64,000 bases of DNA. Origin: Planktomarina temperata RCA23. Its GTDB lineage: Bacteria; Pseudomonadota; Alphaproteobacteria; Rhodobacterales; Rhodobacteraceae. Of this stretch, positions 6,858 through 63,511 are shown one piece after another (within the stretch, counting starts at the first letter, position 1; each line of letters starts with the position of its first letter). The notes below the pieces were generated by a model that saw only the letters and a list, made by a program, of their open reading frames with translations, did not search any database and was not told where the DNA came from. The stretch covers positions 930,001 through 994,000 of the forward strand of contig NZ_CP003984.1 in the NCBI RefSeq assembly GCF_000738435.1. The letters are read 5' to 3'. A program made the position numbers and the translations under genes.

Positions 6858-8185
6858 TGGCCATTAAGAACCAGACTTCTCGCGGCGTGTCACATACGTC
6901 ACTGCTCTCAATAAGGGATGGGCATACCCAAAAACGCAACTCAGCCGAAAAGCGGTTCCGCATTTACGGGATGGTCGCCCTCTCCATCGGCGTGTTGTTT
7001 CTTATATTCTTATTTGCTTCGATCCTACGCTCAGGTTTGCCGGCCTTCACCCAGACCGTAATGAATGTTGAATTTGTTGTGTCTCAAGAAGAGTTTGACA
7101 AAGCCGAAAGCAAAATGCTGAAAACCAAGGCCTATCAAGACATATTCGTTGCGGCATTGAGCGCGGAGCTTGCAAGAAGGAACTTGGATGTGGCCTTCGA
7201 TAATAAAGCGATCGAACGCATTGTGGGCAAGCCGGGCGGCACAATTCGAAGTTATTTTACCGAAGATCCAAGCCGGGTCGGACAGCCTGCGACTTTCGAG
7301 CTTGCGGCCTCCAGCCGGGTGGATGGCTATTTTAACGGCCGCGTCACCCGTGAGACTTTGGTTGACAGCCGCTTTTTGAAGGCAACGGATCTGGATCTGG
7401 TCGATGCTTTACAGGCCGGCGGCATAATTCGTCAGGCATTCAATTGGAATTTTATCACCGGCACGGATTCCGGCGTGGATAACCCTGGAGGCGCCGGACT
7501 TGGGGCTTCCGTTATTGGATCGTTCTTCATGATGTTGGTGGTGCTGTTTTTGTCACTCCCGATTGGGGTTGCCGCTTCGATTTACCTTGAAGAATTTGCC
7601 CCGCGAAATCGTTGGACGGATTTTATTGAGGTGAATATCTCCAACCTCGCCGCGGTGCCGTCCATCGTGTTTGGTATTCTTGGCCTCGCCGTTTTCATAC
7701 AATTTGCGGGGTTGCCACAATCTGCCCCGCTTGTCGGTGGCCTTGTTTTGACCTTGATGACATTGCCGACGATCATCATCTCAACCCGCGCATCGCTTGC
7801 GGCTGTTCCACCCTCTATCCGCGATGCCGCCCTTGGTGTGGGTGCATCCAAGATGCAGTCAGTGTTCCACCACGTCCTGCCGCTGGCGATGCCCGGTATT
7901 TTGACAGGCACGATTATTGGCCTGGCCCAGGCCCTTGGCGAAACGGCGCCTTTGCTCTTGATCGGGATGGTCGGTTTTGTTGCGCGCGAGTATCCCGAGG
8001 GGTTTCTGTCAGGCTTTACGGACGCCAACTCGGCAATGCCGGCGCAAATTTATACCTGGGCCAGTCGCGCTGATCCCGGATTTTATGAAAAAGCATGGGG
8101 CGGCATTATCATTTTGCTGCTATTCCTCATTACGATGAATGCTATCGCAATCATCTTAAGACGTCGCTTCGAACGGCGTTGGTAA
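6857..8185 (+). CDS. pstA: Phosphate ABC transporter permease PstA
   Basis: Second permease subunit of the phosphate importer, 442 residues. The N-terminal part (about residues 1-190) is the DUF3333-type extension seen in alphaproteobacterial PstA, with one membrane segment near residues 37-57. The C-terminal half is the transport core, with the EAA-type loop [20 protein letters not shown]. It overlaps pstC by one base and sits 4 bp before pstB. Confidence 0.94.
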
Positions 8186-8189
8186 GGAC

Positions 8190-8996
8190 ATGTCAAAAAT
8201 GCTCGATGTAACAACTGTGGAGAGAGATGTGGCAGTAAACAATGTCAAAATTTCAGCAAAGGACGTACAGGTCTTTTATGGAGATAATCACGCCATTAAA
8301 GATGTCACTGTCGAAATCGAAGACAAGACTGTAACTGCGTTTATTGGCCCATCTGGATGCGGGAAATCGACATTTTTGCGGTGTATCAATCGTATGAACG
8401 ATACGATTGAAGTGTGCCGTGTCGTGGGTGATATTCGGATTGACGGTGAAAATATTTACGATCCAAAGATTGATCCGGTCCAGCTGCGCGCCAAGGTTGG
8501 AATGGTCTTTCAAAAGCCAAATCCCTTTCCAAAATCGATCTATGACAATGTCGCATATGGGCCGAGAATACATGGCCTGGCCCGGAACAAGGCGGAATTG
8601 GACGAGATCGTCGAGCGTTCGCTGCGCAGTGGCGCGATTTGGGATGAGGTGAAAGATCGGTTGCAGGCGCCAGGGACAGGGCTGTCTGGTGGGCAACAGC
8701 AGCGGCTATGTATTGCACGCGCCATCGCGACGGAACCCAAGGTTCTGCTGATGGATGAGCCTTGCTCCGCTCTTGATCCCATTGCCACCGCGCAAGTTGA
8801 AGAACTTATTGATGAGCTGCGCAAAAGTTATTCGGTGGTGATTGTGACCCATTCGATGCAGCAAGCCGCACGTGTGAGCCAAAAGACGGCTTTCTTCCAT
8901 CTCGGCAGCCTTGTTGAGTTTGGTGAGACCTCCAAAATTTTCACCAACCCAATCGATCCGCGCACTGAAAGCTATATTACTGGCCGTATCGGCTGA
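8190..8996 (+). CDS. pstB: Phosphate ABC transporter ATP-binding protein PstB
   Basis: The ATPase that powers phosphate import, 268 residues, cytoplasmic and bound to PstA/PstC. Walker A is GPSGCGKST (residues 53-61), the signature is [16 protein letters not shown], Walker B ends in [12 protein letters not shown] and the switch histidine is in IVTHSMQQA. The CSALDP form is characteristic of PstB. The length is normal for the family. Confidence 0.97.
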
Positions 8997-13575: not shown

Positions 13576-15314
13576 TGGCCACATCGATTAATCGCGCCGA
13601 TTACGCTGCCATGTTTGGGCCAACTGTGGGTGACAAAATACGCCTTGCTGACACGGATCTTATTATTGAGGTCGAACGCGATCTGACCGCAGAACGCACC
13701 AATGGCCGCAATGGCATGACCTATGGCGAGGAGGTAAAATTCGGCGGTGGTAAAGTCATTCGTGATGGCATGGGCCAATCCCAAGTCACCCGTGCTGCAG
13801 GTGCTGTGGATACTGTTATGACCAACGCTTTGATCATTGATCACAGCGGCATCTACAAAGCGGATGTGGGTTTGCGCGATGGTCGCATTCATAAGATCGG
13901 CAAGGCCGGCAACCCAGACACGCAACCGGGTGTAGATATCATCATAGGCCCGGGAACCGAAGTCATTGCTTGTGAGGGGCGCATCCTGACAGCAGGCGGT
14001 TTTGACAGCCACATACACTTTATCTGCCCGCAACAGATCGAGGATGCCTTGCATTCTGGTATGACCACAATGCTCGGCGGGGGCACTGGCCCAGCACATG
14101 GTACTTTGGCCACGACTTGTACGCCGGGACCATGGCACATTGGGCGCATGTTGCAGGCTGCAGATGCTTTTTCCATGAACCTCGCTTTTGCAGGCAAAGG
14201 CAACGCCAGCCAACCGAACGCATTGGTCGAGATGGTAAGAGGTGGTGCGTGCGCGCTAAAGTTGCATGAAGATTGGGGCACGACTCCTGCTGCGATTGAT
14301 TGCTGCCTTTCTGTGGCTGATGACATGGATGTGCAGGTTATGATCCATACTGACACACTCAATGAATCTGGCTTTGTTGAAACCACGGTAGCAGCATTGA
14401 AAGGGCGCACAATTCACGCTTTTCATACCGAAGGTGCAGGCGGCGGGCATGCTCCGGACATCATCAAAATCTGTGGTGAAGAGCATGTTCTGCCGTCCTC
14501 CACCAACCCAACGCGGCCCTATACTGTGAACACATTAGAAGAGCATTTGGACATGCTGATGGTCTGCCACCACCTCGACAAATCCATCCCAGAGGATGTT
14601 GCGTTTGCAGAAAGTCGCATCCGCCGCGAAACCATTGCGGCAGAAGATATTCTGCATGACATGGGTGCCTTTTCGATCATAGCCTCTGACAGTCAGGCGA
14701 TGGGCCGTGTGGGTGAGGTGTTGATCCGCACATGGCAAACCGCTGACAAAATGAAAAAACAGCGCGGCCGGCTGTCTGAAGAAACAGGCGACAATGATAA
14801 TTTCCGTGTGCGCCGCTATATTGCAAAGTACACGATCAACCCTGCGATTGCTCATGGGATTAGTCGCGAAATTGGCAGCATCACTGAGGGTAAACGTGCC
14901 GATCTGGTGCTATGGGCCCCTGCGTTTTTTGGCGTAAAACCTGAGATGGTTCTAATGGCAGGTACAATCGTTTGTGCGCAGATGGGCGACCCAAACGCCT
15001 CAATCCCGACCCCGCAGCCAGTCTATTCACGCCCCATGTTTGGGGCCTATGGAAAGTCGGTCGAGCATTCAGCCGTCTGTTTTGTTTCCGCCGCTGCCCA
15101 AGCGGATGGGATTGGTGACAAATTGGGTCTGTCAAAGCAAACCGTTGCTGTGGAAAACACCCGCAAAATTGGCAAATCCCATCTGATACACAACACCGCC
15201 ACGCCACATATGGAGGTCAATCCAGAAACCTACGAGGTGCGCGCCGATGGTGAACTTCTAACCTGTGAACCCGCTACAAAACTTCCGATGGCCCAAAGGT
15301 ATTTTTTATTTTGA
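13575..15314 (+). CDS. ureC: Urease alpha (catalytic) subunit UreC
   Basis: Catalytic subunit with the dinickel site, 579 residues. Nickel ligands are in [12 protein letters not shown], the carbamylated lysine is K229 in ALKLHEDWG, and the mobile flap cysteine and catalytic histidine are C331-H332 in MVCHHLDKS. The C-terminal end [16 protein letters not shown] is typical. All active-site residues are present, so the enzyme should be functional. Part of ureDABCEFG. Confidence 0.98.
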
Positions 15315-46467: not shown

Positions 46468-47409
46468 TCAAGCTTTGGGGTGGGCGGCGTTGTAAATGTC
46501 CATCAATCGCCCGCTGTCAACCGCGGTATAGGTTTGCGTGGTCGAGAGCGAAGCATGGCCCAGCAGCTCTTGGATGGTGCGCAGGTCACCGCCGGCGCTG
46601 AGCAGATGTGTGGCAAAGGAGTGGCGCATGGCGTGGGGGGTGGCACTTGCCGGCAGACCCAATTGCATCCGAGCCATGCGCATGGATTTTTGAACCATTC
46701 CTGGCCCCAATGCCCCGCCGCGCTTTCCTCGAAAGATCGGATCCTTTGCTCTGATGTGAAAGGGGCAGAGCTCCACATACCGCGTGACAGCGGCGCGGGC
46801 CACCGGCAGGACCGGCACCAATCTTTGCTTGCCGCCTTTTCCGGTGATGCGCAGGACATCGGGCAATGGGTGATCTGCCCCGGTTAATCCGAGGGCCTCC
46901 GATATCCGCAGGCCGCAACCATAGAGCAGGGTTAATACTGCCGCATCGCGAGCGGCGATCCAATCCTCTTGGGCCTGCATCTCGACGGTTCCAATCATTT
47001 CATGAGCGGCATCTTCGGTCAAAGGACGGGGCAGTTTGCGTTCGAATTTTGGCGCGCGTGCCGATAAAACGGCGGTTGGCGCAAGCGCATGGCGCTCGGC
47101 GAGCCAACGAAAGAAGGTTTTCACCGCAGAGAGAGATCGCGCTAAACTGCGGCTGCTCACTCCGCGGCCGCGCTCATGTGCCATCCACGCGCGCATATCG
47201 CGTGTGGCGATGGCGGCCAGAGACGACAGCCCCTGCCGTCCGCCGCGATGTTGGGCCATGAAGGCGGTAAATCCAGCCACGTCGGTTGCGTAGGCGCTAA
47301 GGGTATTGTCAGCCGCAGATTTTAAAGCGCGCTCGTGAGACAGCCAATGCTCCATGGCATCGCGAATAGCCGGTGATATCAAGGTGAGGTCAGGCCTCTG
47401 TGACATCAT
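46468..47409 (-). CDS. xerC: Tyrosine recombinase XerC
   Basis: Site-specific recombinase of 313 residues that, with XerD, resolves chromosome dimers at dif. The N-terminal SAM-like domain has HERALKSAADNTLSAYATDV. The catalytic set is visible: R in YGCGLRISEALGL, HAMRHSFATHLLSAGGD and LLGHASLSTTQTYTAVD with the nucleophilic tyrosine. It lies 6 bp after the DUF484 gene on the same strand, the usual pairing. Confidence 0.95.
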   Translation of the reverse strand: MMSQRPDLTLISPAIRDAMEHWLSHERALKSAADNTLSAYATDVAGFTAFMAQHRGGRQGLSSLAAIATRDMRAWMAHERGRGVSSRSLARSLSAVKTFFRWLAERHALAPTAVLSARAPKFERKLPRPLTEDAAHEMIGTVEMQAQEDWIAARDAAVLTLLYGCGLRISEALGLTGADHPLPDVLRITGKGGKQRLVPVLPVARAAVTRYVELCPFHIRAKDPIFRGKRGGALGPGMVQKSMRMARMQLGLPASATPHAMRHSFATHLLSAGGDLRTIQELLGHASLSTTQTYTAVDSGRLMDIYNAAHPKA

Positions 47410-60295: not shown

Positions 60296-60372
60296 GCCGC
60301 CTTAGCTCAGTTGGTTAGAGCGCCTGATTGTGGATCAGGAGGTCCCTGGTTCGAGACCAGGAGGTGGTACCA
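60296..60372 (+). tRNA. tRNA-His (anticodon GTG)
   Basis: A full cloverleaf of 77 nt with an encoded CCA end. The anticodon stem CCTGA/TCAGG holds TTGTGGA with anticodon GTG, and the T-arm is CCTGG-TTCGAGA-CCAGG. The base before the acceptor stem is T, not G; the first pair is G-U and the discriminator is A. This is the known alphaproteobacterial form of tRNA-His that lacks G-1. It marks the left edge of an accessory region, a common place for island insertion. Confidence 0.95.
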
Positions 60373-60784
60373 TTACTTTCAATGGGTTACCCTGTATATT
60401 GCCCTCGCGTAGTATTTTGAACTCGAATAATTGTCGCGTTCATTGCTACGTTTGAATAATGCTTGGCGGCATTTAACTATTATATAAGATTAATCATTGC
60501 TCGGTGTGGTCACTTTAGTTTTTTGCATCCACAACCCATCTAATTCCTCATTCCCAAGACCCCACCCCAGCGGTACCCCCCTTTACAGGCTAGGAGTCCC
60601 AGCTAGACTAGTAATACGAGTATGGACGAACGATTTAGTGTTTGTGGCGAAAGGCTTTTAAGACTGATTAATTGTTGTCATATCTCTGGCTTTGTCGATT
60701 GTAATACATTTGAGTGCCACCATGCTATGGATGTGTTTGGATGCCGCACTAATTGCACGGGCGGATGTTGAAAGGGGATAAGTA
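60373..60784. other. Intergenic region holding repeat copy 1
   Basis: About 410 bp between tRNA-His and the DUF411 gene. The first 160 bp are AT-rich with nothing recognised. The rest contains the first copy of the accessory repeat and, past it, a short minus-strand sequence ending KAFRHKH-stop that resembles the end of the minus-strand MORN gene. Confidence 0.5.
60541..60657 (+). repeat. Accessory-region repeat, copy 1
   Basis: Shares with the other two copies AATTCCTC at the left, a run of C, TTTACA (60582-60587), TAGGAGTCCC, TAATAC and ACGAACGATTT (60626-60636). The spacing from TTTACA to GACGAACG is 43 bp. It also shares with copy 3 the stretch from CGATTTAGTG to GGCTTT. Confidence 0.75.
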
Positions 60785-61279
60785 ATGAGGGACCAAGTAT
60801 CGTTAAGCCGGCGGCAACTGTTAATACTTGCTTCAAGTTCTATCGTTGCTGCTCCGTTGGCTGCCTTAGGTGACGGCACTTCTCCTGATATTCACGTAGT
60901 TAAAAACCCACAATGTGGCTGCTGCACTGCATGGATAGAGATTTTAACAGACAAAGGCTTCAATGTTACCACTGAAGATCGCGCTGGTGGCCTTTTGACT
61001 GAATTTAAGATTGAGAGTGGTATCCCCAAAAATATGATGTCCTGTCATACCGCTAAAGTTGATGGGTACTTCATCGAAGGACACGTTCCCGCCAGCGACA
61101 TAAGACGTCTCTTAGCAGACCTCCCTGATGCATTAGGATTAGCCGTGCCAGCAATGCCTTACGGCTCGCCCGGGATGGGACCTGAAGATGAACGTGAAGC
61201 CTACGATGTGTATATAATCAGTGCCGACGGCACAGCAGAGGTGTTTCAACATTATCCTAAAGCAGGAATACCCGTTTAA
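60785..61279 (+). CDS. DUF411 domain-containing protein (metal-binding, Tat-exported)
   Basis: A 164-residue protein with a twin-arginine signal (SRRQLLILASS) and a DUF411 domain. The motif NPQCGCCTAWIEILTDKGF is diagnostic, and FKIESGIPKNMMSCHTAKVD and YFIEGHVPASDIRRLL follow. DUF411 proteins are often found with copper genes, so periplasmic copper binding is a reasonable guess. Unlike most, it has no copper neighbours. It lies between repeat copies 1 and 2, as though carried in a cassette. Confidence 0.9.
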   Translation: MRDQVSLSRRQLLILASSSIVAAPLAALGDGTSPDIHVVKNPQCGCCTAWIEILTDKGFNVTTEDRAGGLLTEFKIESGIPKNMMSCHTAKVDGYFIEGHVPASDIRRLLADLPDALGLAVPAMPYGSPGMGPEDEREAYDVYIISADGTAEVFQHYPKAGIPV

Positions 61280-61575
61280 GATTAGCCTATTGACTGTCCA
61301 ATTCCTCCGTCGGTGAAGGGTACCGGGGGGTACACCCCCGTTTTACAAAGTAGGAGTCCCTGCTGGACTAAGTAATACTAATGCAGACGAACGATTTGAA
61401 AATTTTTGGGTTATGCTATGATGGTCACTGGTATCAATGAAACGGTGATGTTGGTGAACATGGAGTTGCACTCTGTTTTGTCTATAGCAGCGGTAGCGCT
61501 TCTTAGCATATTTCCGGGTGCAGTGCTGTCCAATGCGGCCATAATTATTTCTTAAGGCAAGGTTTGGGGCCAAGC
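61280..61575. other. Intergenic region holding repeat copy 2
   Basis: About 300 bp between the DUF411 and MORN genes. The first 120 bp are repeat copy 2, including a GGGGG-TACA-CCCCC hairpin. The remainder shows no confident gene. Confidence 0.5.
61300..61398 (+). repeat. Accessory-region repeat, copy 2
   Basis: Contains AATTCCTC, the run CACCCCCG, TTTACA (61342-61347), TAGGAGTCCC, TAATACTA and GACGAACGATTT (61386-61397), with 44 bp from TTTACA to GACGAACG. AGTCC and GGACT inside it can pair around CTGCT. It lies between the DUF411 and MORN genes. Confidence 0.75.
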
Positions 61576-62391
61576 ATGTCGATAATTTGTGCAAGTTGTG
61601 GAGCAGATTCTAATGGTGATTTCGATGTTGACTGGTGTCAAAATTGTAGAAAACCTATCTTAGGTGCCACTGCCCCCACACCTCAGAATTTATCAGATGG
61701 TATTTGGTCACTAGACAGTTCTGGAGAAAAATTTTCAGGTAATGTAATCGATGGGCTTGCTGAAGGCCTCGGTACATTAATTTCTGACGAAAGTTGTAGT
61801 GTGGGAAATTTTGAATCTGGCAAACTTAATGGGAAATGTACTGTCATAGACCTCTATGAACAAGGCTGAGGTAACACTTTTGTTGGTGAGATCAAAAATG
61901 GAATTCGTTCCGGTTATGGAAAGTATCTTTTTCATTACCCATGTTTTTATGAGGGTTTCTTCAAAAATTTTAGGTATCATGGTAAAGGTGTTCGAGTTTT
62001 TCCCGATGGTACTAGGTACGAGGGACAATTTAAGGACGGAGTCCCTCACGGACGTGGAATAGAAAGATATTCAGACGGCAGTAAGTATCATGGTACCTTT
62101 GAATTGGGGAAAAAAAGTGGAAAGGGTATCGAAACTTTTCTGCTAGGTTCAATATACCAAGGTGATTTTTGTGAAGGACGATTTGGTGGTTGTGGCAGAT
62201 TTACTTTCCCAACTGGTGAATTTTGGGAAGGAAGTTTTTCTACTGAGTGGCTAAATGTACGAGGTGGAAAAGAAATTTTTTACACTATTCAAGAAAAGAA
62301 CGGAAAAAAACGGTTTGGTCAGTTTCAAAATAGTGGGTATTTTAATGATTATACGTCCTTATTGGGCAGGCTGCTTAATCTACTAAAATAG
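61576..62391 (+). pseudogene. Zinc-ribbon plus MORN-repeat protein gene with an in-frame TGA
   Basis: From ATG 61576 the frame encodes an N-terminal zinc ribbon with cysteines C5, C8, C21 and C24, then about six MORN repeats (for example YEGFFKNFRYHGKGVRVFPD and YEGQFKDGVPHGRGIERYSD), and ends at 62391. Codon 98 is TGA (61867-61869), after which the same frame continues through all later repeats, so a single change splits the gene. The intact form would be 271 residues. A MORN protein could be membrane-attached. It could still be expressed as a 97-residue piece. Confidence 0.75.
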
Positions 62392-62489
62392 ACGTGAGCC
62401 CTAATGCAACGATTAACGAAATCATAGTGAAAATGATTTTAAAACAGACTGAATTAAAGATTGTGAAAATGAGCGGTCATTAGCAATCT

Positions 62490-62609
62490 ATTCGCTCACC
62501 TCTCCGACCATACCCCCGGCACCCTCCACTTTACAGATCAGGTCTTCTAGCTTCTTTCTGTAATACTAATCCACACGAACGATTTAGTGGATATGGTAAA
62601 CGGGCTTTG
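62490..62609 (+). repeat. Accessory-region repeat, copy 3
   Basis: Contains TTTACA (62530-62535), TAATACTAAT and ACGAACGATTT (62575-62585), with 44-45 bp from TTTACA to ACGAACG. The inner part differs more than in copies 1 and 2. Its right end overlaps the 3' end of the minus-strand MORN gene. Confidence 0.65.
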
Positions 62610-63360
62610 CATTAATCGTTTTAGGGACACTTAACACCCGCTGCAAACTCCCATTATCCCAAACGCCGTCATAGTTCTGTCCGTTCGGTAGGCGAACCTT
62701 CATAAAGCCGTGCGGCTTTAAATTCTCCAATGTGCCGTACCATCGGACGCCTTGGTCGTCTGTGCTCGTTGCGTAATGCACACTGGTATCATTTACCCAG
62801 CAGCCAGATATTAGGTTGCTAGATTTACTAGTATACTTACCGATACCATGCCGCGTAAAATGTAGCAGTTCTCCTACATATTTAGCGCCGTCTGTGTAGG
62901 TTATTGTGCCGCTTGTGCGCCCATGCTGATCAGGGAAAGTACCAGAAAACTTCCAGTCATTGCTTGCTATTTGGACATCACCAGTAAGGGTTCCGTTCTG
63001 CCAGCTCCCTTTGAACGTCCTTTGGGATGACTTTTCAAATAATTCACCAAACCCAGATCGAACGCCATTCTTCAATAACCCATGATACGTGTCGCCATTT
63101 TTATAAAATATTTTGGCTGATCCTGTCTGTTCGCCATTGGCCCATTCACCAGCATATTGAAAGCCAGAAGCTGAATTGAAAATACCAAAGCCATGTTTTA
63201 CGCCAAACTTGAAATCGCCCTCGTAAACGCCACCATATTTGTACTGCAGAACGCCACGACCGTGGAACATACCTCTGCGCCAAGAGCCTTGGTAGCTCAG
63301 CACATCTGAATGGTTTACAGAATAGAAGCGCCCAAACAGGCGTCGTATAAAATTGTTCAT
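62584..63360 (-). CDS. MORN-repeat protein
   Basis: A 258-residue protein made of about eight MORN-type repeats (YQGSWRRGMFHGRGVLQY, YEGDFKFGVKHGFGIFNS, YAGEWANGEQTGSAKIFY, YHGLLKNGVRSGFGELFE and so on). No signal peptide is clear; the first residues MNNFIRRLFGRFYSV could form a short amphipathic helix. ATG at 63360 with AGGTG upstream is preferred; the frame runs to a TTG at 63441. MORN repeats bind membranes or partners in other proteins, but no function can be assigned. Base use is AT-richer than in the housekeeping part. Confidence 0.82.
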   Translation of the reverse strand: MNNFIRRLFGRFYSVNHSDVLSYQGSWRRGMFHGRGVLQYKYGGVYEGDFKFGVKHGFGIFNSASGFQYAGEWANGEQTGSAKIFYKNGDTYHGLLKNGVRSGFGELFEKSSQRTFKGSWQNGTLTGDVQIASNDWKFSGTFPDQHGRTSGTITYTDGAKYVGELLHFTRHGIGKYTSKSSNLISGCWVNDTSVHYATSTDDQGVRWYGTLENLKPHGFMKVRLPNGQNYDGVWDNGSLQRVLSVPKTINAKPVYHIH

Positions 63361-63511
63361 ATAAACACCTGCTACCGGCCACTTGTACATTGCAGGTGAT
63401 TCCACTTTTCTCCAGTATTGGCCTGTAGGTTTTTGAGTCAACGAACGTAAAATTAGTCAGCTGAAAGTTGCCGTTTATCTTTGACGAGCTGCGGTTTATG
63501 TCGAGCACATA

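Follow-up and report, generated by a model that had tools for sequence, protein, structure and literature searches.

Copies of a diverged repeat of about 115 bp, forming a family nearly restricted to the genus Planktomarina, were found at the joints of small gene modules in Planktomarina temperata RCA23 and its relatives. The DUF411 gene, which in the window has one of these copies behind it, recurs in different settings among the genomes, and this copy shares an exact 25-mer with a family of marine phages, at a site upstream of the position of the large terminase gene (terL). The repeats are tentatively regarded as a phage-related cis site, for packaging or replication, borne by gene modules without an integrase. 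This explanation was ranked first because it accounts for the conserved core, the linkage with accessory genes, the lack of a recognised recombinase, the islands beside tRNA genes and the 25-mer. No published description of the family was found in a limited literature search.

Bacteria of the RCA/Planktomarina group abound in temperate to polar oceans and, according to PMC10675870, are almost without prophages, plasmids and complete gene transfer agents. For these genomes, a site family which marks swapped modules and shares terminase-proximal sequence with a marine phage provides a testable route of accessory-gene transfer.

Repeat copies in the window and in the rest of the genome

The window is the whole stretch of 64,000 nucleotides that was analysed. 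Its coordinates equal the position on G000:C1 minus 930000, G000 being the genome under study (a single contig of 3,288,122 bp). The features concerned were as follows.

60296 to 60372, + strand: tRNA-His (GTG), found by ARAGORN; left edge of the variable stretch
60541 to 60655, + strand: repeat copy 1, 168 bp 3' of tRNA-His; match to model R2 (eleven copies, see below) at E=2.6e-24; exact core pattern
60717 to 61307, + strand: DUF411 unit, kept across genomes as a BLAST block with sharp edges; ORF at 60785 to 61279
61299 to 61413, + strand: repeat copy 2, 19 bp past the DUF411 stop; match to model R2 at E=7.9e-20; carries the 25-mer common to marine phages
61564 to 62391, + strand: MORN-like frame with one in-frame TGA at 61867 to 61869, otherwise open
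62489 to 62601, + strand: repeat copy 3, into which the reversed MORN ORF extends with its 3' end; match to model R2 at E=1.4e-17
62584 to 63441, - strand: intact MORN-repeat ORF (Pfam PF02493, E=1.4e-12), its 3' end overlapping copy 3

The sequence-only reading had described three copies at gene boundaries and in one orientation with TTTACA, TAATAC and ACGAACGATTT in common, lying beside tRNA-His and marking off units of about 760 and 1,190 bp. The copies, their common motifs and their place beside tRNA-His were all confirmed at the boundaries given above, and the copy spacings were 760-761 and 1188 bp, respectively. In the whole genome of 3.29 Mb the pattern TTTACA-N36-42-ACGAACGATTT was counted three times and the reversed control pattern 0 times. 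A BLAST search with copy 1 retrieved copy 2 (E=1e-8), and reached copy 3 solely through a 15-bp match (E=0.8), while a sequence-only model, built in part from the window copies, recovered all three of them at E 5e-26 to 2e-20.

A fourth copy was located at G000:C1:779493, 211 kb from the window copies, truncated by an insertion sequence that bears a transposase and is IS6-type by eye; a tRNA 3' half was read by eye 165 bp before it. Exact-pattern and model searches gave few copies in the genome, and the scattering throughout it that had been named as the sign of an ordinary dispersed repeat was not seen. A two-gene unit is present twice just before the 779493 copy (L066:5394-6336 and 7984-8959, near 775-779 kb of G000), with protein identities of 51% and 37% between the pairs; the second pair, which was scanned, had no Pfam match.

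The second part of the interrupted MORN-like frame resembles the adjoining MORN ORF (best E=1e-9). A search of 28 loci for sequences related to the two MORN units and the adjoining ORF gave two weak matches, and no moved copy of the 1188-bp MORN unit was found among these loci. Elsewhere in the window, 13757-14046 on the - strand matches the Rfam family 5_ureB_sRNA with 122.9 bits.

Divergence of the copies and distribution among genomes

Pairwise identity between copies was 41-69%, with the exception of 74-86% among those of G018:C11, L113 and L118. The window copies are 51-61% identical to each other and no closer than to copies elsewhere; they are therefore not the product of a recent tandem duplication. 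The alignment of 11 copies contains 13 invariant and 15 near-invariant columns, most of which belong to the core; the flanks diverge, and about 40 bases left of the core are variable. A mini-mobile element had been proposed, and one of recent activity does not agree with the identity of 41-69% for most pairs; together with the few copies and the absence of an inverted repeat pairing the copy ends, this sets the family apart from MITEs.

The sequence-only model, made from six copies, was searched against 195 genomes (the own genome included). Matches at E<=0.1 were obtained in 12 of the 195, and those at E<1e-3 came from 6 of the 20 Planktomarina genomes and 0 of the 175 others. Searched against the 20 genus genomes, model R2, made from 11 copies, gave 14 matches (E<=0.02), all of them within these six and one at G017:C3:127634; the 779493 copy, from the six-copy model, is additional. 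Partial copies are present in G015 (two), G017:C4 and G018:C7. A pattern scan of GTDB genomes returned nine stretches, i.e. four known copies, L113, L118 and three low-scoring ones. L113 is a Rhodobacteraceae MAG assigned to family level and L118 is a Tara MAG labelled as a gammaproteobacterium, and both carry the repeat; L118, if it is correctly binned, would be an exception to the genus limit.

Copy 1 had no match among plasmids and the query g17 none among phages at E<=1, and the searches of copy 2 against phages and of the query g18a against plasmids gave only 22-26-base matches at E 1-5. A second dispersed sequence of about 40 bp, CTTAACAATATTACCGTTTCTGTGAAGTC, was noticed in several genus genomes (L065:8552-8596, L064:115-178, L153, L155 and L157). 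It proved to be distinct from the repeat, though it twice lies just left of weak repeat copies.

The DUF411 unit and the joints between gene modules

The ORF at 60785-61279 matched Pfam PF04214 (E=4e-26). The unit of about 594 bp that contains it is present, in more than one setting, in eight genomes (G000, G005, G009, G010, G014, G016, G017 and G018), and in a ninth, G015, only 133 bp of it aligned. At six of the seven places outside G018 the block ran from query position 634 (640 in G009) to 1225-1228, and in G005 from 703 to 1245.

At the right edge of the unit, identity fell in all 28 pairs of the eight loci from 0.77-0.97 on the gene side to 0.13-0.54 in the next 40 columns, these pairs including loci without the repeat, where a drop is expected. 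The drop falls just after CTAATTCCTC, i.e. at the left edge of the repeat; between G017 and G018 it was from 0.97 to 0.39. Among the repeat-bearing loci identity recovered in the core (0.72 for G000-G017, 0.76 for G017-G005 and 0.65 for G000-G005), above the 0.46-0.50 of the adjacent 40 columns in these pairs. Behind the unit, the site is present in one orientation throughout in G000, G017 and G005, and weakly in G010 (a diverged copy, E=0.12). Only the left part of the repeat is kept at the G018 locus, and DUF411 stands without a full repeat in three of the eight genomes (G014, G009 and G016), the G014 locus appearing by eye as a fusion of a left and a right end.

On its left side the unit starts about 60 bp beyond copy 1 in G000, and in other genomes non-repeat DNA adjoins it there, so the units are not simple repeat-to-repeat cassettes. 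The only exact joint was the left one in G018, whose left flank matches G009:C4 up to the joint, and no repeat is there. A separate 286-bp stretch common to L113 and G018:C11 terminates inside the repeat. The joints cluster at the repeat, yet not at one fixed base. The earlier claim that the repeats delimit gene units was upheld by the fall of similarity at the left edge of the repeat after a unit found in eight genomes. The proposed cassette array, with the repeat as its recombination site, agreed with the DUF411 unit at its right edge and not at its left, nor with the absence of attC core sites.

DUF411 follows tRNA-His in G000 and tRNA-Ser in G017. In G014 and G016 it comes after a tRNA-Ser 3' end or remnant as read by eye, where no whole tRNA was detected by ARAGORN; on account of this common tRNA-Ser position, the loci of G017, G014 and G016 may share one ancestral place. 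Seven DUF411 relatives were obtained from viral contigs, none with the repeat. In G017, L030:17431-18258 holds a remnant of the DUF411 leader and then a peroxiredoxin gene, directly after tRNA-Ser.

tRNA genes, variable stretches and recombinases

In support of the earlier reading, the sequence past tRNA-His was unlike that of G000 in all ten relatives that were readable beyond the tRNA, with G010 and G014 resembling each other there. G002 and G004 are 97% identical to G000 up to tRNA-His, and the similarity is lost 2 and 9 bp past it, respectively. To judge from a weak 31-bp similarity (E=1e-4), G000 and G009 may have part of the spacer in common. Integration of the tRNA type at tRNA-His was considered and rejected, as a search of 984-1024 kb gave no further tRNA-His 3' end. 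A clean empty site was sought at tRNA-Lys, G018:C7, G017:C4, G018:C16 and tRNA-His, and none was found. By ARAGORN, tRNA genes were placed within 170 bp of 3 of the 16 copies examined, i.e. copy 1 (His), G010:C46 (Lys) and G005:C57 (Gly); the last is a weak repeat copy whose tRNA-Gly is on the opposite strand.

The earlier statement that no integrase lies in the window has to be corrected, since a tyrosine recombinase is encoded at 46468-47409, which we take, in view of its neighbour, to be the housekeeping XerC. G000 contains 26 matches to PF00589 (tyrosine recombinase), 21 of them above cut-off, and the one nearest to the copies is this presumed XerC, 13 kb away. Among the selected neighbour ORFs scanned, no mobile-element integrase, phage gene or other recombinase was recognised near any copy. 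Four short tyrosine-recombinase frames of 192-202 aa (G000:C1:700061, 736025, 2372248 and 1341584) are probably too short for the usual N-terminal domain.

The marine phage family sharing the 25-mer of copy 2

IMG/VR was scanned with the pattern TTTACRNANTAGGANTCCC, and the reversed pattern was used as the control. The 19 contigs obtained were 14 related ones (one family) and five singles with the match inside stop-free frames, and with 15 contigs from the control the count of 19 is not above chance. The exact 25-mer is common to copy 2 and 12 of the 14 family contigs, the other two sharing 20 and 14 nt; the longest exact run with copy 2 was 9-18 nt in the 15 reversed-pattern matches and 10-14 nt in the five other real matches. 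The 14 contigs are one lineage, and the sharing therefore counts as one event; the strong phage match is to copy 2 only. The phage site lies outside stop-free frames of at least 100 codons in 11 of the 14 family contigs, as against 3 of the 15 controls and 0 of the five other real matches, and crosses a stop-free frame in 3 of the 14. In both respects, run length and non-coding position, the family stands apart from chance matches. A second viral scan gave 12 contigs, all from this family (two in the reversed control), and a scan for the commoner bacterial core form gave 0 viral contigs. When the seed was kept and only the flanks were shuffled, the real score was reached by 5 to 25 out of 300 shuffled versions, and similarity beyond the shared run is thus weak.

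In an alignment of 13 phage contigs, few parts of the region are conserved as well as the site. It lies 140-235 bp (581 in one) from a leftward gene, 1.2-1.8 kb upstream of the terL position and 0.6-1.2 kb, with one or two genes between, from an ORF of 213-222 aa that we take by position only to be terS; this presumed terS had no PHROG match. terL was identified in L237 only (PHROG terL, E=1e-101), and an ORF at the same position is present in 13 of the 14 contigs, with 511-517 aa in nine and shorter or cut in four. The top four named terL matches ranged from 52.4% (phage DSL-LC04) to 49.4% (Pelagibacter phage HTVC023P). The site is absent from the terminase regions of the named relatives DSL-LC04, 023Pt_psg01 and HTVC023P and of Roseobacter phage CRP-901, and the phage region matched no named phage at E<=0.01. 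A long non-coding region with GAAC-rich repeats was observed at L237:7587-8414 and in its relatives among L231-L244; it adjoins the large terminase gene and two kinds of gene judged by eye to be HesB-like and metalloprotease-like.

Weighing of the explanations

According to the tentatively favoured explanation, the repeats would be copies of an old, sequence-specific cis site of about 115 bp on small integrase-less gene modules, which would reside in hypervariable islands of Planktomarina. The site would be related to phage DNA, since the part of it that is conserved best recurs in the phage family, upstream of terL and mostly in non-coding sequence. Passing phages, or elements using phage machinery, would package or replicate the DNA linked to the site, and DUF411 and other accessory genes would thereby pass from host to host and become lodged in islands, in some cases beside tRNA genes, with sequence breaks left at or inside the site. 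We infer a cos/pac or replication function for the phage site, a like function, present or past, for the bacterial copies, and phage-mediated transfer. Since 0.6-1.2 kb and one or two genes separate the site from the presumed terS, a promoter or an origin region could be an alternative to cos. The near freedom from prophages reported for RCA genomes in PMC10675870 counts against this explanation. An old dispersed repeat without a present role, such as a decayed mobile-element end or an intergenic element with which breaks would coincide through frequent island rearrangement, is somewhat less likely and a live alternative. The strong divergence of the copies, several of which are partial and one cut by a transposase-bearing element, accords with it, as does the fast change between species of the regions checked for empty sites, but it leaves unaccounted for a core of invariant or near-invariant columns that persists in 11 copies and the higher identity of this core over the adjacent columns in the G000, G017 and G005 pairs.

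Less probable than a dispersed repeat, yet likewise a live alternative, is an undescribed exchange system of the cassette kind that uses the repeat for recombination, in which a recombinase encoded elsewhere would join modules by integron-like logic and not by integron sequence. The order of gene unit and then site in four genomes (weakly in G010), the breaks at the left edge of and inside the repeat, the partial copies in G015, G017:C4 and G018:C7 and the supply of tyrosine-recombinase matches, the four short frames included, would suit such an exchange; the left edges of units off the repeat (about 60 bp away in G000, with no repeat there in G018), the breakpoints at several places, the lack of a recognised recombinase near the copies and the 0 of 14 attC core sites speak against it. 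Integron gene cassettes in an array without integrase are very improbable: the likeness is confined to a gene with a site of about 100 bp, in one orientation and several in a row, and the pair RYYYAAC...GTTRRRY was absent from all 14 copies (partial ones included) on both strands at spacings of 20-140, with no fold common to 11 copies as the imperfect palindrome of attC would require. A structured RNA or small-RNA gene, also suggested earlier, has an equally slight chance: against the intergenic position, the conserved core and the foldability of single copies stand 0 pairs on the + strand and 3 weak pairs on the - strand (RNAalifold, 11 copies), the seven weak pairs of a five-copy alignment being lost with 11, and the lack of an Rfam match at the copies. 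Within the favoured phage-related cis site, a further idea is that modules too small for mobility genes travel as 'site-only' hitchhikers on a cos-like site alone and that tRNA-side islands are built from them; it is doubtful.

Comparison with known systems

In tycheposons and other tRNA-associated islands of marine bacteria, variable units lie next to tRNA genes. The Planktomarina units likewise adjoin tRNA genes, but differ in the single tRNA-His 3' end of the stretch searched and in having no integrase recognised in them. The pdif modules of Acinetobacter plasmids are small gene modules bounded by short 28-bp XerC/XerD sites, with no recombinase of their own; small modules without a recombinase are the likeness here, and the length of the Planktomarina site, about 115 bp, is the difference. 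Integron arrays, as described in PMC3053210, also have single-gene units each followed by a site of about 100 bp in one orientation; unlike attC, the repeat is without RYYYAAC/GTTRRRY and without a conserved palindrome, the left edges of units are off the site, and no linked integrase was recognised.

Gram-positive PICIs are about 15 kb, with int, regulator and replication genes (PMC6092414), whereas the Planktomarina units are of 0.8-1.2 kb, with no int, regulator or replication genes recognised among the selected ORFs, and their packaging is putative. In the PICI EcCICFT073, cosN resembles that of lambda and phi80, and the phage cosB was not found, as stated in the same paper. As in PICIs, chromosomal islands in Planktomarina bear a site that may resemble a phage packaging site, and only part of this site matches phage, as in EcCICFT073.
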